Source: Picosynechococcus sp. PCC 7117 (lineage in GTDB: Bacteria; Cyanobacteriota; Cyanobacteriia; Cyanobacteriales; MRBY01). Taken from it: DNA of 64,000 bases. Shown here one piece after another: positions 34,123 through 43,761 of the stretch. Where the stretch lies: assembly GCF_001693275.1 (NCBI RefSeq), contig NZ_CP016477.1, positions 2,046,001-2,110,000 on the forward strand, given 5' to 3'. The position numbers and the translations under genes were made by a program. The stretch's first letter is position 1, and each line of letters starts with the position of its first letter. The notes beneath the pieces are model-generated. The model saw only the letters and a program-made list of their open reading frames with translations, searched no databases and was not told the origin of the DNA.

Positions 34123-34644
34123 CTAGAGCCATTTAATCTGCCAAAATTTCTGGTCTGCCGTGCGCTGTTCCTTTTCTGTGAGCCAAGCGGGCATCGGACG
34201 ATAGGTGCCAAAAAGCCGATCCCACCAATCAACACCGATCCCAAAATTATGGTGCCACTGATTGTATTTATGGTGAACGTAATGGACGGGCATCGGTAGC
34301 CAAAAACATTTAACCGGGTTGTCATGTTGCAATTGGTGGGCGAAGGCAGCAAAGGCCGCGTAGAAAAAACAGCCCAGAAACCAACTGATTCCTAGGGTCA
34401 GAGAATGGAGAAAAAAAGGCAACATCACAACATTAATCCCGAAAACATAGTTGCGAAACTCCCAAAGAAAACCCTGGCCAGTACCGCCAACATGATGTTT
34501 GGCATGGCCTTGGCCCAGTTTAGGAAAAATTCGCTTCAGGGGATGCTTGGGGGAAGCATGGAAAATTCGGTGAATCCAATATTCCAGAAAACTACCGAAG
34601 ATAAAGGCCAGGCTGAAGATGAGTAAAGGCAACAAAATTTCCAT
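34123..34644 (-). CDS. Sterol desaturase / fatty-acid hydroxylase family protein
   Basis: A 173-aa diiron membrane oxygenase. The four His clusters of the superfamily are all present: EYWIHRIFH (about residues 22-30), GHAKHH (about 46-51), HQLQH (about 105-109) and HYVHHKYNQWHHNFG (about 121-135). Hydrophobic segments lie at about 5-20 and 65-100. Relatives hydroxylate or desaturate sterols, sphingoid bases, fatty acids or carotenoids. It is shorter than classic sterol desaturases and close in size to small cyanobacterial hydroxylases. It sits divergently from the flippase gene at the edge of the sphingolipid-like cluster, so a long-chain lipid is a plausible substrate. That link is inference. 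Confidence 0.82.
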   Translation of the reverse strand: MEILLPLLIFSLAFIFGSFLEYWIHRIFHASPKHPLKRIFPKLGQGHAKHHVGGTGQGFLWEFRNYVFGINVVMLPFFLHSLTLGISWFLGCFFYAAFAAFAHQLQHDNPVKCFWLPMPVHYVHHKYNQWHHNFGIGVDWWDRLFGTYRPMPAWLTEKEQRTADQKFWQIKWL

Positions 34645-34823
34645 AGGTCACACTTGCAGTTCACGCAAAACTTCAATAGAGTAAACAGGCTATGTTGGCT
34701 ACAACCCTTGCGGTTCGCCATGATTGGGCCAGGGAACATTTGTGAACTTTTGTATTATAGTTGTCTCGGCAAACCTTTGGGTCTCAACAGTGAAGGCCGT
34801 AATTTTTTTTTCGTCACGAATCA

Positions 34824-36161
34824 ATGGCTAAATTTTTTTGGGCAGACCGCATTCTCCGCAAAATCTTAAAAAATTTCAGTTGGTTGCTCTGTGGTCAAAT
34901 TCTGACGGCGATCATCAACTTCTGCTATCTCAGTCTCACGGCCCATGCCCTTGGGGTTGAGACTTTTGGGAGGTTAATTTTACTCCGGGCTTACATTGAG
35001 CTTTTGATTGGCTTGACAACTTTTCAGTCATGGCAAGCGTTAATTCGTTATGGCGCTGATTATGTAAAGAATAAGGATTCTAAGGGTTTATGCGAGTTAT
35101 TTAAATTAACCACTGGCCTGGATCTTCTGGGTTCTTTGGGGGGGTATCTAGTTGCTGTTGCGGCGGCGCCGTGGGTCGGGCCAATCGTGGGATGGGAGCC
35201 GCAGACGATCCATGCTGTGCAGCAAGCCAGTATTTTGATGCTTTGTACCCTTGGCTCAACCCCTATTGGTTTACTGCGACTCGATGATCGCTTTGATCTA
35301 CTCGCGGCCCAACAATTGGTGCCACCGCTTACGCGTCTTGTGGGCACTCTCATTGCCCTCTGGCTCGATGCTCCTTTGATGGGCTATCTTCTGGCTTGGT
35401 TATGTGGGGAGGCACTTAATGGTCTTTCGCTATTGGCTTTGGGTTTGTGGCAAGCCCATAAAAAGCAAATTTTGCGTCGTTTGGATTGGTCTTTGCCGGA
35501 TTTTTTGTTTGGCGATCGCCGTGTTCTAAAATTTTGCTTTGTTTCTAATCTGAATTCTTCTTTACCCCTGGCGATCACCCTGAGTCCGTTGATTGTCGGC
35601 GCGGTGGCAACCCCCAGCGCTGTGGCCTTGTTTCGGGCTGGCTACGAATTTTCGACCCCTTTCCGAGAACTCGCTTTAATTTTTACTCAGTCGGTTTATC
35701 CTGAATTAGCCCACTTGAGTGCCCAAGGACGCTGGCGCAAATTTCAAAAGCTGCTGTGGAAACTAGGGCGGGTGCTCCAGGGGATTGGTTTTATTTTGCT
35801 AATTGCCATTCTGTTGGGGGGTAAAGGGTTACTCTACTACGCGATGGGGGAAGAGTTTACGGCGGCCTATGGCACCTTAGTTTTGCTGATTACCGGCGGT
35901 ATTTTGATGATGGGGAACTATCTGCTTGAACCAGCCCTGTTTGCGATGGAAATGCCCCATATCTCACTGCGAAATAATGCCACCGCCATTCTTCTTTTCT
36001 ATCTGCCGTTACTGGTGGTTTTGGCTTACTATTACGGAGCTTTGGGGGCAGGCATGGCGACTCTCATTGCCAATGGTGTTGGGTTTTCACTGAATTTATT
36101 CTGTACGTGGCGGGAAGTGCAACGACGTTCGACACCAACGCCGGAATATTTAACCCGTTGA
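34824..36161 (+). CDS. Oligosaccharide/lipid flippase (polysaccharide biosynthesis, MOP superfamily)
   Basis: A 445-aa membrane protein with about 12 helices in two halves, typical of Wzx/MATE-like flippases. The N-terminal NFSWLLCGQILTAIINFCYLSLTAHALGVETFGRLILLRAYIELL is the diagnostic region ('ALGVxxFG'). Such proteins flip lipid-linked sugars across the plasma membrane for capsule, O-antigen or glycolipid export. It runs convergently into the glycosyltransferase gene with a 12-base overlap and is divergent from the hydroxylase. Flipping a glycosylated lipid made by the neighbouring operon is an attractive but unproven role. Confidence 0.85.
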   Translation: MAKFFWADRILRKILKNFSWLLCGQILTAIINFCYLSLTAHALGVETFGRLILLRAYIELLIGLTTFQSWQALIRYGADYVKNKDSKGLCELFKLTTGLDLLGSLGGYLVAVAAAPWVGPIVGWEPQTIHAVQQASILMLCTLGSTPIGLLRLDDRFDLLAAQQLVPPLTRLVGTLIALWLDAPLMGYLLAWLCGEALNGLSLLALGLWQAHKKQILRRLDWSLPDFLFGDRRVLKFCFVSNLNSSLPLAITLSPLIVGAVATPSAVALFRAGYEFSTPFRELALIFTQSVYPELAHLSAQGRWRKFQKLLWKLGRVLQGIGFILLIAILLGGKGLLYYAMGEEFTAAYGTLVLLITGGILMMGNYLLEPALFAMEMPHISLRNNATAILLFYLPLLVVLAYYYGALGAGMATLIANGVGFSLNLFCTWREVQRRSTPTPEYLTR

Positions 36162-37376
36162 TCGGATTTGGGTTTCTAAATAACGAACCCATTGTTCACT
36201 GGGATCAAGTTGCGTCTCTCGATTTTGGTTTTGCTTTTGGATATTGTTTTGCAGCCGTTGGCGATCGCCTTTAGAGTCGATCAACTGAGCTAGCTGCTGG
36301 ATAAAATCTGCTCCGTCTTCAGGTTGAAACAAACAACCATTGACCCCAGGCTCAATCAGATTCCGTGCCCAGTCACAGTCCGGGGCTAAAACGGGGGTCC
36401 CCACATAGAGGGATTCTTGCACTGTCCGGCCAAAAGTTTCTTTAAGGGAAGCAGTCACATGAAGATCCACGTTCGCTAAGAGGGCTGGCACCTGCTCGTG
36501 GGGCACCTCGCCCAGGATCACCGTCGGTAAGCTTTGGGCAAATTCACTATTGGCGATCGCCTCTGCTAATTCTCCCCGGCCTGCTACCAGTAGTGTGAAA
36601 TTTTCAGTAATGTTTGCTCGACCAAGTTCCGGTAAATGCTTCAGAATAAAAGCCCAATTTTTATCGGGAGACAGTCGCCCCAAAAAAAGAATTTTGACCC
36701 GCTGATCCAGGTCTGGTAAGCCATAATGCTGCTGAAAAAAATTGGTCTGTTTTAGGGCTTGGGGATTCGCAATTTTCGGCGGGCCAATCACGGGCATATA
36801 AACCACATTTTCTAGTTGCCATTGCTTTAGGCGCTGTTCAATAAAATGACTGCCTACCAGAGTGACAGAACATTTGCCATAGAGCCGACGGGTTAGGGCT
36901 AAAGCGGCCCATTTCGCTGGCCCAATTAACCAAGCCGGGGCATAGTCCTGGAGATAATCGACAAAATTCGTCCGGTAACAGCCGATATAGGGAATATTTC
37001 GCGCTTGGGCATAATCCCACCCCGGTAAGGCGAAAAGCGTCGTCCAAAGCCGTTCTGGTTCTTCGACTTGAATCAAATCTGGCTGGAATTCCTCTAATGC
37101 GGTTTCAATGTGTCTTAAACTGCTCCGCTTGGGATTGCGTTCCTGGGGAATCCCCAACCAGGCCACACTGGGCAACGGCACAATTGCGACATTTGCAAAC
37201 AAATCGCCCACATAATCAGCCCAACGGGGATAAATAGCGGCGACTTCCTGGTAACTGGAAACAAAACAGAGCACCTGATGTCCCTGGGCAGATAGGACTT
37301 TTAAACGTTCAAATAGCGTGATGCTCACCCCATCGTGGGAAGGCAAAAAGGTGCTCGAAATAATCGCAATTTTCAT
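36150..37376 (-). CDS. GT4-family glycosyltransferase
   Basis: A 408-aa GT-B enzyme: Rossmann-like N-domain (MKIAIISSTFLPSHDGVSITLFERLKVLSAQGHQVLCF) and C-domain with KILFLGRLSPDKNWAFILKHL (about 225) and LLVAGRGELAEAIAN. The nucleotide-sugar EX7E-type motif is ASLKETFGRTVQESLYVGTPVLAPDCDWARNLI (about 310-342). The N-terminus resembles lipid glycosyltransferases such as SqdX and mannosyl/glucosyl transferases. Last gene of the four-gene minus-strand operon, three bases after the FAAL stop to the GTG or nine to the ATG used here. It probably attaches a sugar to the operon's lipid product. Confidence 0.87.
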   Translation of the reverse strand: MKIAIISSTFLPSHDGVSITLFERLKVLSAQGHQVLCFVSSYQEVAAIYPRWADYVGDLFANVAIVPLPSVAWLGIPQERNPKRSSLRHIETALEEFQPDLIQVEEPERLWTTLFALPGWDYAQARNIPYIGCYRTNFVDYLQDYAPAWLIGPAKWAALALTRRLYGKCSVTLVGSHFIEQRLKQWQLENVVYMPVIGPPKIANPQALKQTNFFQQHYGLPDLDQRVKILFLGRLSPDKNWAFILKHLPELGRANITENFTLLVAGRGELAEAIANSEFAQSLPTVILGEVPHEQVPALLANVDLHVTASLKETFGRTVQESLYVGTPVLAPDCDWARNLIEPGVNGCLFQPEDGADFIQQLAQLIDSKGDRQRLQNNIQKQNQNRETQLDPSEQWVRYLETQIRSTG

Positions 37377-37385
37377 CGCCACCCT

Positions 37386-39164
37386 TTAGAGGCTATTGGC
37401 CAGGGCCGTGACATCACTATCAGCGATCGCCAACTGCCATTCCCCCAAACCGTTGAGGGTACCCGCCAGATACTGCTGACGACAGGCTTGCCGCTGAATT
37501 TTACCGCTAGAAGTTTTGGGGATACTGCCCGTTCGCAAGAGGACAATACCGTAAACTTCCACCGTATGTTCTTCGTAAACAGCCTGGCGAACTGCCCCAA
37601 CAATTTCCTCTAGATCAAAGTGACGGACATAGCTCCGTTCCAATTCTTGAACCACCACCAGTCGTTCTTCATCGGCGGCCTCCACGGAAAAAGCCGCACC
37701 CGCACAGGGACGCAGAGCTGGGTGACATTGCTCCACAGTCAGCTCAATATCCTGGGGATAACGGTAACGGCCCCAAAGAATCATTACGTCCTTCGTACGT
37801 CCGGTAATAAAGAGTTCGCCATCTTTTAAAAAGCCGAGATCCCCCGTACGGAGATAGGGGCCTTGGTTATCCACATAGGCTTGGAAGGTTTCTTTTGTGA
37901 TTTCTGGCCGTTCCCAGTAGCCTTTACCAATCCCTTTACCTGCGGCCCAAATTTCGCCCACTTGGCCTTCGGGAAGTTTGGTTTTGGTTTCCGGGTCAAC
38001 GATAATCACCTCGTCGTCAAGCCATGTCCAGCCACAACTGACAATGCCCCGACTGCCATCGGTACTGATGATCGCTTGGTTTTGTTCGAGGGCTTCGGGG
38101 GCCATATATTGCACCACTGGCGCTTTTTCCTTGGAGCCGCCACTGATGAACAGAGTCGCTTCGGCCATGCCATAGCAAGGATAAAAGGCTTCGCGACGAA
38201 ACCCGCAAGGGGCGAAGGTCTGGGCAAACTTTTCGAGGGTACTGGCCCGGACAGTTTCAGCGCCACTATAGGCCACATCCCAAGAGTTGAGATCGAGGGT
38301 TTTGAGTTGTTCTGGGGTGACTTGGCGAGCAACCAAATCATAGGCAAAGTTCGGGCCACCACTGGTGGTGATGCGGTGCTGGGAGATGATCTCTAGCCAC
38401 CGGACAGGCTTTTGTACTAGCTCGATGGGAGACATCAGAAAGGCCTCAAAGTTGCCGTAGAAGGGCTGGAGAACACCGCCGATCAAGCCCATATCGTGAA
38501 ACATGGGGAGCCAACTGGCCATCCGGGTTTCGGGACTGTGGCTAAAGGATTTGTAGATCACGGCGGAGTTATGGAGCACATTACCATGGGTGACCATCAC
38601 GCCTTTGGGTTTCCCTGTGGAGCCGGAGGTGTATTGCAAAAAGGCGAGGGTGTCGTCGGTAATGTTGGGGGCTTGCCAGTCTGCTGCGAGATCTGCGGGA
38701 ATTTCATCCATCGCAATTACTTTGACTTGGCTAAATTTGCGCACAAGACCAGCGGCCTGGCGGGGGGCTTTAGTGAGTTTCTTTTGGAAATAGTCAATGA
38801 GGGCGCGGGTTGTGAGGATTCCCTTGGCCTGACAATCTTCTACCCGTTCCATGAGCTTTTCGAGGGCATCATCACTGCGACTGGGGTTAATGGTGACGGC
38901 GATCGCCCCGGCATAGAGACAAGCGTAAAAACTAGCAACAAATTCGAGGCCCGCCGAGTAGGGGAACACTAACAAAATGCGATTGCCCGGTTCGATAAAG
39001 TTTTGCAAATGGGCGGCGATCGCCTTTACCTGGTGCTCTAGTTGGGCATAGGTCAGGGTTGTGAGGTTATCTTCGCCTGAAATAAAGTGATAGGCGGTGC
39101 GGTCGGGGGTGCTGTCAACGCGGTGACGAAGCAGATCAACAATGGTTTTCGCAGAATGGGTCAT
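37386..39164 (-). CDS. Stand-alone fatty acyl-AMP ligase (FAAL)
   Basis: A 592-aa adenylating enzyme: AMP-binding P-loop YTSGSTGKPKGVM (residues ~178-190), WLPMFHDMGLIGGVLQPF, the A5-type motif FYPCYGMAEATLF (about 330), LRTGDLGFLKDGELFITGRTKD (about 470) and the C-terminal catalytic-Lys motif SIPKTSSGKIQR near residue 560. The FYPCYGMAEATLF and FHDMGLIGG stretches are typical of FAAL, which activates fatty acids as acyl-AMP and loads an acyl carrier protein rather than CoA. It has no ACP of its own, so it may feed the ACP of the neighbouring fusion or a free ACP. The start is between 39164 and 39179. Confidence 0.88.
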   Translation of the reverse strand: MTHSAKTIVDLLRHRVDSTPDRTAYHFISGEDNLTTLTYAQLEHQVKAIAAHLQNFIEPGNRILLVFPYSAGLEFVASFYACLYAGAIAVTINPSRSDDALEKLMERVEDCQAKGILTTRALIDYFQKKLTKAPRQAAGLVRKFSQVKVIAMDEIPADLAADWQAPNITDDTLAFLQYTSGSTGKPKGVMVTHGNVLHNSAVIYKSFSHSPETRMASWLPMFHDMGLIGGVLQPFYGNFEAFLMSPIELVQKPVRWLEIISQHRITTSGGPNFAYDLVARQVTPEQLKTLDLNSWDVAYSGAETVRASTLEKFAQTFAPCGFRREAFYPCYGMAEATLFISGGSKEKAPVVQYMAPEALEQNQAIISTDGSRGIVSCGWTWLDDEVIIVDPETKTKLPEGQVGEIWAAGKGIGKGYWERPEITKETFQAYVDNQGPYLRTGDLGFLKDGELFITGRTKDVMILWGRYRYPQDIELTVEQCHPALRPCAGAAFSVEAADEERLVVVQELERSYVRHFDLEEIVGAVRQAVYEEHTVEVYGIVLLRTGSIPKTSSGKIQRQACRQQYLAGTLNGLGEWQLAIADSDVTALANSL

Positions 39165-39209
39165 GGTGGGCGATCCCATGGGGTCAGGGTAAAGGAAAGG
39201 GATAAAGAT

Positions 39210-40016
39210 TTAGTGTTGGCGGGCGCGGGCCACCAGTCGATCAAAATACCATTGCAGGACGGGGGCCAGCAGGCTATGGAGGCGATAAAGTAGTTGCATT
39301 TCCAAGCCAGGGGTAATAACGAATTGTTGTCGCTGAATACCCCGGAGAATGGTGGCGGCAACCCGTTCTGCTGTCCACATTTGGGCGGTCTCTGTAATTA
39401 ACTTGGTTTCCGGCGGTTTTGTCAAATTTTCGGCGGCCAGTTGGGGGGTATCGGTATCGGGCGGATAGGCGATCGCCACCTGAATCCCCTGGGACTTTAA
39501 TTCTCCCCGGAGAGATTCGGCCAGACCCCGCAGGGCAAATTTACTCGGACTGTAGGGGGTATAGCCAAACAAACCCACTAGACCCGCTCCAGAGGAAATC
39601 ATCACAATTTGGCCCTGGTTTTGGGCACTCATTGCTGGGAGGGCAGCGCGAATCGCATACAACGTGCCGAAATAATTTACCGTCATGGTTTGTTCAAAAA
39701 TCTCCAGGGGCAGTTCCTGAAAATAACCGGGGTGGGCCATGCCCGCTGAGGTGATTAATAAATCCGGCGCTCCAAATTTTTCCATGGCTGTGGCGATCGC
39801 CTGTTCAATTTCCAACCGTTGGGCCACATCCGCCGTGAGGGTTAAACATTGCTGCTGGGCATCGGTAAAAGCTTCTTGAATCTGAGTTTGCGCTACCTGG
39901 AGCTTAGTGGGACTGCGGGCAATGATTGAAAGATTGACATTCCCCTGTTGAGCTAACTGACAGGCGATCGCCAAACCAATCCCACTCGATCCCCCCGTAA
40001 TAATTGCGTGTCGCAT
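39210..40016 (-). CDS. Short-chain dehydrogenase resembling 3-ketodihydrosphingosine reductase
   Basis: A 268-aa SDR. ITGGSSGIGLAIACQL (residues ~6-21) binds NADP(H), ITSAGMAHPGYF is the NAG-like motif, MISSGAGLVGLFGYTPYSPSKFAL holds the catalytic Ser-Tyr-Lys (YSPSK), and YPPDTDTPQL (about 187) follows. The 'PPDTDTPQL' segment is what I recall as typical of KDSR/Tsc10-type enzymes, which reduce 3-ketosphinganine to sphinganine. The C-terminal amphipathic part (LLYRLHSLLAPVLQWYFDRLVAR) may associate with membrane. Its ATG directly abuts the TAG of the FAAL-ACP-oxoamine-synthase gene, indicating translational coupling. Confidence 0.8.
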   Translation of the reverse strand: MRHAIITGGSSGIGLAIACQLAQQGNVNLSIIARSPTKLQVAQTQIQEAFTDAQQQCLTLTADVAQRLEIEQAIATAMEKFGAPDLLITSAGMAHPGYFQELPLEIFEQTMTVNYFGTLYAIRAALPAMSAQNQGQIVMISSGAGLVGLFGYTPYSPSKFALRGLAESLRGELKSQGIQVAIAYPPDTDTPQLAAENLTKPPETKLITETAQMWTAERVAATILRGIQRQQFVITPGLEMQLLYRLHSLLAPVLQWYFDRLVARARQH

Positions 40017-43000
40017 CTATTCAGCCTCGATTTCAGCCAGAAATTGCTGACCGACTTCCGCAAAAATTGCGAGGGCTTTGTCTAAATGTTCCTGGGTGTG
40101 GGTCGCCATCACACTGGTCCGGAGGGCGGCTTTATTACGAGGCACCGCCGGATACACCGCTGCATTCACATAAACTCCCGCCTCTAGCAGCGCCTTACAG
40201 AATTGCATACATTTAAAATCATCGCCAATGTGTACCGTAATAATCGGCGTTTGGGCGGTACCCACAGTAAACCCAAGGGACTGTAACCCCCGTTGCCAAT
40301 ATTGGGCATTTTCATGGAGCTTTTGCACCCGCCAGGGTTCGGCGATCAAAATATCCAAGGCCGTGGCAGCCGCAGCCAAGGAGGTGGGGGGTATAGAAGC
40401 CGAAAATAACATTGACCGCCCGTTAAAACGAATCCAATCAATCACCTTTGCTTCGGCGGCGACCCAACCGCCAATGGAAGCCAAACTCTTGGAAAAAGTG
40501 CCGCAAAGAATATCACTGCTGCCGATTATCCCGAAATGCTCCTCCGTCCCCCGGCCCGTTTTTCCCAAAACACCCAGAGCATGGGCATCATCTACTGCGA
40601 GGGTAGCCCCATGGCGATCGCATAATTTCCGAATTTCTGGTAGGGGCGCAATATCCCCCGTCATTGAATACAGACCATCAATCGTGACCATTGTCGCGGA
40701 CTCTGGCGTCACCTGGATCAATTTTTGTTCTAAATCTTGCAGGTCATTGTGCTGGTATTGAACTACCCGGCAGCGACTCATAAACGCCCCATCGTAAATG
40801 CAAGCATGGGCCTCACTGTCGAGGATCATCGTTGTATTTTCGTTCATCAAGGCAGAAATAAAGCCTAAATTCGCCTGATATCCCGTGGTAAAGACTAGAG
40901 CATCCTCATGACCGACGAAGGCGGCAAGTTTTCGCTCAAATTCTCGGTGTTGGCGGGTCGAACCATTGAGCAATCGTGATCCCGTTAAACTCGGCCCTTC
41001 TTCTAGAGCGGCCTTGGCAGTGGCTTCTCGTACTCGGACATCGGCAGTCAGCCCCAGATAATTATTGGAGCCCAACATAATTAGTTGTCGCCCTTCAAAA
41101 ATACAGGTGGCCCCTTCATTGCGTTCAAGGGCTCGGAAATAGGGCAGTAGATCATTGGCTCGCAATTGATCCGGCAGGTTAAACTCCCTGGCTTTATCGA
41201 GGACATTGCGGCTTGGTTTATAAGCGAGGCGCAACCGTTGGTCGAGATCAATGCCCTCTGCTTCTAGCTGAGTCGCTTGGGGGAGATGTCCGTTTTGGTG
41301 ATGTTGGGATTCTTGGGGGAGATTAGCTAGAGTCAGGATATCTTGGGCGAGTTGGGCAACGGTAAGATCCTCAAAAAATTTTTCAAGGGGCACTGTTAAG
41401 TCGAATTTTTGCTCGATGTAATGCTTGATTTCAACAACTTGCACGGAATCTAGGCCCAAAGCGGCGATGGGTTGATCGTCTTGGATAGTATCAAGGGGCA
41501 ACGAGAGGGCTTGGGCCAATTGTTCGCGGAGGGGTTTAATTAAGTCAGTGGTCGGCTGGGAGGGTTGTTGTTTCTGGGGAGGATTAAAACTTTGGGCGGA
41601 AGCATGATCTACTTCACCCAGGACGCTGCGGCCCACAACCATCAACTCATCGGCCAGAAACGCTTGACGGCAACGGTGTCGTTGGATTTTACCGCTGGAC
41701 GTTTTCGGGATACTACCGGTTTTAATCAGGATGATGCCATAGGTTTGTAGTTCATGGTTTGCGGCGATCGCCTGACGGATTTTTTGGGCGATCGCCTCGA
41801 CATCCAGATTTCGGAGAAAAGTTCGTTTTACCTCTTGCACCAGCATTAGGCGTTCTGTACCGTCAATTTCTACCGTGAAGGCCGCCCCGCAATTTTCCCG
41901 GAGAGCTGGGTGGGATTGTTGGGCCGTGAGCTCGATGTCGTGGGGATAGTGATTTTTTCCCCGGACGATAATTAAATCCTTGAGGCGACCGGTAATGAAC
42001 AGTTCTCCTGCGGCGATAAAACCGAGATCACCAGTGCGCAGGAAAGATTTTTGGTGGTGATTGAGAGTTGCCGTAAAGGTTTCTTGGGTGGCAATGGGGG
42101 CATTCCAATAACCCTGGGCGACACTGTCCCCCCGCACCCACACTTCCCCAGTCGTCCCTTCAGGACAAGGGGCAAAAGATTCCGGATCAACGATCGCCAC
42201 CTGGGTGTCATGGTAGGGTTGGCCACAACTGACAAATAGATTTTCTGACTCTGCCGATGAATTGGTGGTAATCGGCGCTCGTTTTTTGTCACCCCCTGTG
42301 ATGAAGAGGGTCGCTTCGGCCATGCCATAGCAGGGATAAAAGGCCTCTGGCCGGAAACCACAGGGGGCAAATTTTTGACTGAATTTGTCGAGGGTCACCG
42401 CTCGCACTGGTTCCGCACCGCTGTAAGCAAGATTCCAACTGCTTAAATCCAGATCGGCTAGATCACTGTCCGTCAGGCGATCAACACATAGATCATAGGC
42501 AAAATTTGGCCCACCGCTGGTCGTAGCCTGATACTTGGCGATCGCCTGGAGCCAGCGACGAGGATTAGTTAAAAACGCCACCGGAGGCATCAAAATACTG
42601 GGAAAGCCCACGTAAAGCGGCTGGAGTACATGGCCAATGAGACCCATATCATGGAAAAGGGGCAGCCAACCGACCCCGATACTCTTTTCGCTATGGCCAA
42701 AGGCGGTTTGAATCAGTCGCTGGTTGTGAAGGATATTCCGGTGGGAAACCATCACGCCCTTTGGTGTCCCCGTAGAGCCAGAAGTGTATTGCAGAAATGC
42801 TAGATCATCCCCCTGAATTGCCTGGGGCTTGAAGCCTTGGGGAGCTTGTTCTAAAGTATCCGTCGCCAAAAAGGTTAGATCCTGAAACGGTTCTGCTTGG
42901 GCAAATCTTTGTTGAATATCTCCTAACAAAGCCTCGGTGGTCAGGGCAAGTTCGGCCTGGGCATTATCGGCGATCGCCAACAGGCGCGATAATTTTTGGT

Positions 43001-43301
43001 TGCGCTTCGGCGGATAGACAGGCACCGCAATCACCCCGGCATAAAGACACCCCAGAAATGCTGTGATAAACGCCAACCCAGACGGATACAGCAACAATGC
43101 CCGTTCCCCACGCCAGGGGGCCAGATGGGAGGCGATCACCTTTGCCTGGGTTGCTAATTCTTGATAGGTAAGGTGACCAGATTCAGTTTCTCCATTTTCT
43201 AAAAAAACATAGGCTTGGGCATTGGGTTGGCTGCGTGCCCGCTCATTGAGGATATCGAGCAACGATGCTTGTGCCTGGATAGAATGCTGGAGAAACGTCA
43301 T
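40017..43301 (-). CDS. FAAL-ACP-alpha-oxoamine synthase fusion (serine palmitoyltransferase-like)
   Basis: A 1094-aa three-part enzyme. Residues ~1-575 are a fatty acyl-AMP ligase (P-loop YTSGSTGTPKGVM at about 172-184; FYPCYGMAEATLF; SIPKTSSGKIQR). About 595-680 is an acyl carrier protein with the 4'-phosphopantetheine Ser at about 619 (ALGLDSVQVVEIK). About 690-1094 is an alpha-oxoamine synthase of the SPT/KBL/BioF family, with VDDAHALGVLG and the PLP Lys at about 938 (GTFSKSLASIGGW). One chain could activate a fatty acid, hold it as thioester, and condense it with an amino acid to a 3-keto long-chain base. The amino acid (Ser, Ala, Gly or other) cannot be read. First gene of the operon. 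Confidence 0.9.
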   Translation of the reverse strand: MTFLQHSIQAQASLLDILNERARSQPNAQAYVFLENGETESGHLTYQELATQAKVIASHLAPWRGERALLLYPSGLAFITAFLGCLYAGVIAVPVYPPKRNQKLSRLLAIADNAQAELALTTEALLGDIQQRFAQAEPFQDLTFLATDTLEQAPQGFKPQAIQGDDLAFLQYTSGSTGTPKGVMVSHRNILHNQRLIQTAFGHSEKSIGVGWLPLFHDMGLIGHVLQPLYVGFPSILMPPVAFLTNPRRWLQAIAKYQATTSGGPNFAYDLCVDRLTDSDLADLDLSSWNLAYSGAEPVRAVTLDKFSQKFAPCGFRPEAFYPCYGMAEATLFITGGDKKRAPITTNSSAESENLFVSCGQPYHDTQVAIVDPESFAPCPEGTTGEVWVRGDSVAQGYWNAPIATQETFTATLNHHQKSFLRTGDLGFIAAGELFITGRLKDLIIVRGKNHYPHDIELTAQQSHPALRENCGAAFTVEIDGTERLMLVQEVKRTFLRNLDVEAIAQKIRQAIAANHELQTYGIILIKTGSIPKTSSGKIQRHRCRQAFLADELMVVGRSVLGEVDHASAQSFNPPQKQQPSQPTTDLIKPLREQLAQALSLPLDTIQDDQPIAALGLDSVQVVEIKHYIEQKFDLTVPLEKFFEDLTVAQLAQDILTLANLPQESQHHQNGHLPQATQLEAEGIDLDQRLRLAYKPSRNVLDKAREFNLPDQLRANDLLPYFRALERNEGATCIFEGRQLIMLGSNNYLGLTADVRVREATAKAALEEGPSLTGSRLLNGSTRQHREFERKLAAFVGHEDALVFTTGYQANLGFISALMNENTTMILDSEAHACIYDGAFMSRCRVVQYQHNDLQDLEQKLIQVTPESATMVTIDGLYSMTGDIAPLPEIRKLCDRHGATLAVDDAHALGVLGKTGRGTEEHFGIIGSSDILCGTFSKSLASIGGWVAAEAKVIDWIRFNGRSMLFSASIPPTSLAAAATALDILIAEPWRVQKLHENAQYWQRGLQSLGFTVGTAQTPIITVHIGDDFKCMQFCKALLEAGVYVNAAVYPAVPRNKAALRTSVMATHTQEHLDKALAIFAEVGQQFLAEIEAE

Positions 43302-43687: not shown

Positions 43688-43761
43688 TGGACGTAACTGG
43701 ATTCGAACCAGTGACCCCATCGATGTCAACGATGTACTCTAACCAACTGAGCTATACGTCC
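43688..43761 (-). tRNA. tRNA-Val (anticodon GAC)
   Basis: Reading the minus strand, a full cloverleaf folds. The 7-bp acceptor stem is GGACGTA / TACGTCC, the D-arm is GCTC..GAGT, and the anticodon stem is CATCG / CGATG with loop TTGACAT (anticodon GAC). The T-arm is ACTGG / CCAGT with TTCGAAT, and the discriminator is A. The length is 74 bases and CCA is not encoded. The gene reads codon GUC (and GUU by wobble). Confidence 0.95.

Follow-up and report, generated by a model that had tools for sequence, protein, structure and literature searches.

A candidate gene cluster for a glycosylated sphingoid-type lipid, with a fused ligase, carrier protein and serine palmitoyltransferase-like synthase, in Picosynechococcus sp. 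PCC 7117

The gene cluster described here lies in the 3.43-Mb genome of Picosynechococcus sp. PCC 7117, within a 64,000-nucleotide stretch of contig NZ_CP016477.1 (G000:C1:2046001-2110000; hereafter the window), and is a candidate for the biosynthesis of a sphingoid-type lipid. An original prediction, made from the sequence alone, had placed six genes at positions 34123-43301 of the window, four of them tightly packed on the minus strand, and had assigned their domains from visible motifs. The six open reading frames were found at these positions and Pfam agrees with every domain call. The genes are as follows.

40017..43301, minus strand: fusion protein of fatty acyl-AMP ligase (FAAL), acyl carrier protein (ACP) and oxoamine synthase (AOS), 1094 aa (Pfam AMP-binding, PP-binding and Aminotran_1_2; NCBIfam, trees, motifs and fold)
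39210..40016, minus strand: short-chain dehydrogenase/reductase (SDR), 268 aa, likely a KDSR/TSC10-like 3-ketosphinganine reductase (Pfam adh_short; PDB match, ENxTKP motif and co-occurrence)
37386..39179, minus strand: second FAAL (FAAL2), 597 aa, without a fused ACP (Pfam AMP-binding and DIP2-like C-domain; NCBIfam FAAL models; motifs)
36150..37382, minus strand: GT4 glycosyltransferase, 410 aa (Pfam GT4 domains; weak structure matches)
34824..36161, plus strand: flippase, 445 aa, of the subfamily found at the serine palmitoyltransferase (SPT) locus of E. coli BL21 (Pfam Polysacc_synt PF01943; flippase comparison)
34123..34644, minus strand: diiron hydroxylase, 173 aa, the least certain pathway member (Pfam FA_hydroxylase PF04116; His boxes)

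The gaps within the four-gene minus-strand operon are 0, 30 and 3 nt; the GT4 and flippase genes converge and overlap by 12 nt at their ends, and the hydroxylase and flippase genes are divergent and separated by 179 nt. The fusion protein consists of a FAAL (residues ~1-575), an ACP (~576-690) with an intact LGLDSVQ motif (Ser617), and an SPT-like AOS domain (691-1094). Both FAALs carry intact YTSGSTGxPKGV and SSGKIQR motifs, the SDR keeps TGGSSGIG and YSPSK, and the hydroxylase keeps its His boxes. The AMP-binding fold, FAALs as nearest kin, the catalytic motifs and a partner ACP all point to FAAL function. The FAAL of the fusion is 51% identical to that of a FAAL-ACP-PKS-sulfotransferase-hydrolase protein of the same genome (PKS, polyketide synthase), which we take to be the olefin synthase, against 31% to the BL21 ligase. 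The GT4 protein weakly matched GT4 structures, PimA and WlaC among them, and a PDB search with the hydroxylase gave no match; in PHROGs, the fusion matches two families without assigned function and the GT4 protein matches none.

The AOS domain, whose comparison with SPT, KBL and BioF the original prediction had proposed, is placed by sequence with characterised SPTs, at bootstrap values of 99-100, apart from both the BioF of its own genome and KBL. On its own, the domain scores 444 bits against the NCBIfam model SPT_CFB, 401 against SPT_beta, 363 against BioF (under the bioF cut-off of 426) and 358 against KBL; the separate BioF of the genome (G000:C1:1354315) reaches 462 on bioF, above the cut-off, and 334 on SPT_CFB, and a KBL from this genus scores over the cut-offs of the KBL models. 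In a 52-row tree the window type (eight rows, two of them identical) groups with the Sphingobacterium and Sphingomonas SPTs with support of 100/97, and in a second tree, which includes the SPT of E. coli BL21 and omits two long rows and one of the identical rows, it groups with SPTs at 99/92. The approximately unbiased (AU) test rejects a grouping of the window type with cyanobacterial BioF (p=0.013) or with KBL (p=0.009). The motifs GSRxLNG, GTFSKS, F(S/T)AS and (Y/F)VN are common to the window AOS and three SPTs and differ in the aligned BioFs and KBLs. SPT-type residues are also kept at the aligned active-site positions, among them Ser81, His138, Lys244 and Arg367 in the numbering of the Sphingobacterium multivorum enzyme (SmSPT). 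The top fold match of an AOS model (pLDDT 82.8) is SmSPT, with a TM of 0.91 and 42% identity.

The SDR is likely a 3-ketosphinganine reductase of the KDSR/TSC10 type, as judged from sequence. Its best PDB sequence match is TSC10, a 3-ketodihydrosphingosine reductase (8jat; 100 bits, the next match 92), at low overall identity, and the aligned region takes in the AENxTKP stretch. Among the loci examined, ENxTKP occurs in 21 of 22 SDR orthologues (>200 bits), and all 12 of the weaker SDR-like frames lack it. On its nearest NCBIfam model the protein scores 198 of 215 bits, under the cut-off. No BLAST match was found between the window SDR and BL21 epi, so that a CerR/epi-type enzyme was not recognized in the cluster; a partial match to epi (31%) lies elsewhere in the genome.

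Association of the genes was assessed in a sample of 386 cyanobacterial genomes, with thresholds of E<=1e-70 for the SDR, E<=1e-110 for a second synthase type queried from locus L171, E<=1e-50 for the flippase and E<=1e-30 for the hydroxylase; the search for the window-type synthase covered the genus and a 291-genome sample of the order. As the genomes are related and not independent, the p-values serve as guides. The SDR occurs in 16 genomes and the second-type synthase in 18, with both in 12; three further SDR genomes belong to the window genus and have the window-type synthase, and one (G064) has neither type. Thus a cluster synthase of either type is present in 15/16 SDR genomes compared with 21/386 overall (the 18 second-type genomes and the three members of the window genus in the sample; Fisher p=2e-21), with the genus left out in 12/13 (p=1e-17), and counted by genus in 11 of 12 SDR genera among 142 (p=6e-12). 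Six synthase genomes lack a window-like SDR. The SDR gene lies inside the synthase gene cluster in eight of the 16 genomes, directly in G000, G002, G003, G200, G228, G013 and G506 and with one gene between in G046; it is about 20 kb from the synthase in G298, about 1.65 Mb away in G125, and on another contig in five genomes. The flippase is found in five genomes, each of which also has the SDR and a synthase (p=3e-7; with the genus excluded, two genomes remain and p=0.002). The co-occurrence that had been proposed as a check was thus borne out for the SDR with the synthase and for the flippase with both. In the order sample the window-type synthase occurs in 6/291 genomes, all in the genus, the next best match scoring 265 bits.

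Within the genus, the fusion gene is followed by FAAL2 in all six genomes examined, with fusion identities of 68-100%, and the order fusion-SDR-FAAL2 was read in each of them; this conservation argues that the gene set is more than chance. Among the five other genus loci GT4 is present in four, and the G005 stretch stops short of its position; in L009, which has the same sequence as G005, GT4, the flippase and the start of the hydroxylase are visible. The flippase and hydroxylase adjoin the operon in the window, G002, G004 and L009/G005. L009, titled Limnothrix sp. RL_2_0, was dropped as an independent witness, since its synthase row and that of G005 are identical; the contig is the same as one from a genome of the window genus, and its title may be wrong. 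Outside the genus, the window-type synthase was therefore seen only in Cyanothece sp. SIO2G6 (L066), where it stands with an SDR and FAAL2 and has a luciferase-like domain between ACP and AOS.

Three further features of the genus loci were also seen. The GT4 protein of G002 (L164:11807-13042) is only 39% like that of the window (36150-37382), while the synthase domains of the two loci share 97% identity; the step that adds the sugar may have been exchanged. A 675-aa protein with epimerase-type and FAD_binding_4 domains is encoded between FAAL2 and GT4 in L009 (14296-16320), and might make a special sugar donor. A histone-deacetylase-type protein (PF00850) follows GT4 in G003 and a similar one in G001 (L165:12223-13137, L166:12582-13496).

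The flippase connects the cluster to known SPT loci. In E. coli BL21 a PF01943 protein is encoded about 3.6 kb away from spt; it aligns with the window flippase over 440 aa, at 25% identity and 129 bits. Neither of these two proteins is matched better than E 0.08 by four control flippases, namely the remaining two PF01943 proteins of the genome and a pair of Wzx flippases from E. coli. Among plasmid flippase matches (33 rows listed, some sharing a record, from totals of 128 and 8 records), five loci were examined. The Klebsiella and Roseomonas loci have an ACP and an SPT within 9 kb, both SPTs passing an NCBIfam SPT model; at the Novosphingobium (flippase next to GT4), Sphingobium and Sinorhizobium loci no ACP or SPT was seen.

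Relatives of the same genes accompany synthases of another clade. In Anabaena catenula (L025) a FAAL-acyl-CoA dehydrogenase-ACP-AOS protein is followed by an SDR (66%) and an MGDG-synthase-type glycosyltransferase, with a hydroxylase and FAAL2 on the opposite strand, and L013 encodes a FAAL, an ACP-AOS protein, an SDR (62%) and a flippase (50%). The L013 and L025 synthases belong to a clade other than the window type, and the presence of SDR, flippase, FAAL2 and hydroxylase relatives with two distinct synthases argues for a working set.

Further clusters with non-window synthases were noted. L202, L203 and L204 (in G139, G125 and G077) are second-type clusters with FAAL2, FAAL, ACP, AOS and a B12 radical SAM protein (DUF4070), together with a relative of GT4 at 38-39%; L202 also encodes a member of the PF05118 Asp/Arg hydroxylase family, and a similar protein was seen in L204. 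L205:7174-15333, L206:6358-13755 and L176:1705-9987 (in G298, G055 and G506) encode very long proteins with the AOS at the C-terminus, preceded in L205 by a full reducing PKS module according to Pfam. The combination of a C-terminal AOS and a KDSR-like SDR in these three genomes recalls the PKS-AOS-reductase logic of fungi.

With the observed protein families, clade placement, intact motifs, conserved operon, co-occurrence and flippase kinship in hand, we propose that a glycosylated sphingoid-type lipid is probably the product of the cluster, assembled by a fused form of the known ligase/ACP/SPT module together with a eukaryote-like reductase. The FAAL of the fusion would activate a fatty acid as acyl-AMP and load it onto the fused ACP, and the SPT-like domain would condense the acyl-ACP with L-serine to 3-ketosphinganine, which the SDR would reduce to sphinganine. 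FAAL2 would activate another fatty acid, which might serve an N-acylation whose enzyme was not found in the cluster, and the PF04116 hydroxylase may hydroxylate a chain. The GT4 enzyme would add a sugar and the flippase would carry the lipid across the inner membrane. Every substrate, serine among them, the chain lengths, the order of the steps, the membrane location and the end product are predicted. The original prediction had hedged the same core, in which a 3-keto long-chain base is formed, reduced, glycosylated and exported; phylogeny, active-site motifs, fold, co-occurrence and the link to a known bacterial SPT locus now support it at the level of sequence.

Several observations weigh against this proposal. 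The AOS domain is under the cut-offs of all three NCBIfam SPT models (444/640, 401/500 and 323/670), which places it outside the three named subfamilies; the BL21, Klebsiella and Roseomonas SPTs each score over one of these models and under the other two. The second tree has long branches meeting where the window clade joins the proteobacterial SPTs, and the AU test does not reject (p=0.247) a grouping of the window type with the remaining fusion-type synthases, whose scores are BioF-like. The BioF of the same genome likewise has SmSPT as its best PDB match (256 bits). The nearest PDB chain was accordingly dropped as a proof by itself, and the SPT argument rests on the tree and the profile contrast. 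For the SDR, a fold search (model pLDDT 74.6) returned no TSC10 in the top 50, a search that was uninformative. In G003 the flippase and hydroxylase lie together on another contig, away from the operon, and in G001, where the surroundings of the operon were examined, neither was seen beside it. The hydroxylase occurs in 31/386 genomes, 23 without and eight with a cluster synthase. It is enriched with the synthase, but clearly has other roles, and was given up as a sure pathway member; of the earlier suggestion that it modifies the chain, its position beside the operon and its enrichment stand, while its broad spread speaks against it. Finally, no N-acyltransferase was identified in three lines of search, two of them without a working control.

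That absence had been foreseen in the original prediction, which found no obvious N-acyltransferase. No homologue of bCerS/aca (yghO) was detected in the genome at E<=10, in a search without a positive control there, nor among the loci examined except in BL21 and Klebsiella; LAG1-type ceramide synthase gave no match, without a working control. The FemAB-like PF04339 protein of the genome, its sole PF13480 match, was rejected as a ceramide synthase, having no significant similarity to yghO and no tie to the cluster. A more ambitious proposal is that the genus makes outer-membrane glycosphingolipids in a eukaryote-like order, SPT first and ketosphinganine reductase second, through free sphinganine; in it a FAAL-ACP-SPT megaenzyme would load itself, and FAAL2 would directly drive the N-acylation in place of a ceramide synthase; we consider this rather unlikely to hold in full.

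Other products and groupings were weighed against the glycosylated sphingoid-type lipid. The synthase might use alanine or glycine instead of serine and yield a 1-deoxy or shorter long-chain amino alcohol, which would lack the C1 hydroxyl that normally would carry the sugar. Sequence cannot fix the substrate with certainty, the SPT profile cut-offs are not reached, and 1-deoxyceramides appear as bacterial products in the portion of a Black Sea study available to us (PMC11334938); we nevertheless regard this alternative as unlikely, as the SPT-type active-site residues are kept, the AOS is placed among SPTs, and the presence of GT4 in the operon suits an acceptor with a hydroxyl group.

The product could also be a secreted amino-alcohol natural product and not a membrane lipid. 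This is quite unlikely for the present operon, which has no PKS or nonribosomal peptide synthetase, and the Wzx-like flippase of the SPT-locus subfamily and the lipid-type glycosyltransferases of the sister clusters fit a glycolipid; in its favour, other-clade synthases end polyketide modules (L205 by Pfam, L176 and L206 by position and length) and the Cyanothece L066 synthase has its inserted luciferase-like domain.

It is also conceivable that the flanking and operon genes do not form one pathway and that only the synthase and SDR belong together, as the hydroxylase in 23/31 genomes without a cluster synthase and the arrangements in G003 and G001 would allow. This is improbable given that the flippase occurs only with SDR and synthase (5/5) and has an SPT gene nearby in E. 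coli BL21, Klebsiella and Roseomonas, and that FAAL2, the glycosyltransferase and the flippase turn up again beside another type of synthase in L013, L025 and L169. A BioF- or KBL-type fusion enzyme, which shares family and fold, is hardly credible: profile scores that favour SPT, a separate BioF above its curated cut-off and AU rejection of both groupings dispose of it, in keeping with the earlier expectation that the enzyme is not of the biotin type.

The nearest described system to the glycosylated sphingoid-lipid cluster proposed here is the proteobacterial sphingolipid locus. According to the portion of PMC9386255 available to us, it comprises aasR (acyl-ACP synthetase), acpR, spt, epi and aca, as in Caulobacter (CC_1162-1165 and CC_1154) and E. 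coli BL21 (ECD_02850-02854); there a separate ligase works together with SPT and an ACP dedicated to it, while the ceramide is finished by epi and aca. Both systems join a ligase, a dedicated ACP and an SPT in one module, and the BL21 flippase is of the same PF01943 subfamily; the window AOS is 38% identical to the BL21 SPT and the window FAALs 31-33% to its ligase. Unlike the proteobacterial locus, the window has ligase, ACP and SPT in a single protein, a classical KDSR-like SDR instead of epi, and FAAL2, GT4 and hydroxylase in addition, and aca was not found in its genome (no positive control). With SmSPT (8guh/3a2b) the AOS shares 42% identity, the top fold match and the motifs, but SmSPT is stand-alone and the window AOS scores 444 against the SPT_CFB cut-off of 640. 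The SDR resembles eukaryotic TSC10 (8jat) as its best PDB sequence match, at low identity overall. Like Npun_R3567 of Nostoc punctiforme, the AOS is a cyanobacterial oxoamine synthase resembling SmSPT; unlike it, the window AOS lies outside the BioF clade. Npun_R3567 is described in the accessible part of PMC8895605 as a stand-alone BioF-clade protein with 38.75% identity to SmSPT that gave no 3-ketosphinganine in E. coli.

Planctomycetota fusions have the same FAAL-ACP-AOS domain order, and several cyanobacterial FAAL-ACP-AOS genes have SDR, FAAL2, flippase or hydroxylase relatives alongside. The planctomycete AOS domains of 19 loci are 31-37% identical to that of the window, and no window-like SDR was seen in the stretches of these loci, some of which are short. 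The planctomycete and cyanobacterial proteins of this kind fall in a separate clade, and for the two of them that were scored, L012 and L171, bioF was the top model, under its cut-off. The 19 loci, with FAAL and AOS and an ACP-sized middle, are L012, L014-L020, L024, L030, L032, L034, L035, L038, L040, L041, L049, L065 and L079. Overall, the cluster appears to hold an SPT-clade synthase in an SPT-like module, outside the three named NCBIfam subfamilies and with the canonical gene set absent as such. The claim of an undescribed pathway stands in part: no report of this gene set was found in the open-access literature, while in proteobacteria a ligase, an ACP and an SPT that act together from separate genes have been described (PMC9386255, in the portion available to us).

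Sphingolipids, a class of fats best known from animals and plants, would here be made by a compact gene set in a unicellular cyanobacterium. The available part of PMC8895605 reports them from two cyanobacteria only, with no known genetic basis, and the sole candidate gene tested in cyanobacteria proved not to be an SPT. The cluster, an SPT-clade candidate in all six genus genomes examined, offers concrete genes for this rarely reported cyanobacterial lipid; the genus, if it is that of Synechococcus PCC 7002, is readily transformed. If the proposal is correct, free fatty acid would be turned into long-chain base by a fused route, a KDSR-type reductase would be at work in bacteria, and long-chain bases might be N-acylated or glycosylated in a novel manner.

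Promoter and terminator scans of the cluster gave signals not clearly over those of shuffled sequence. The GC content of the cluster (0.508) is close to that of the window (0.493), and a tRNA-Val (gac) gene lies just upstream of the operon at 43688-43761 on the minus strand.

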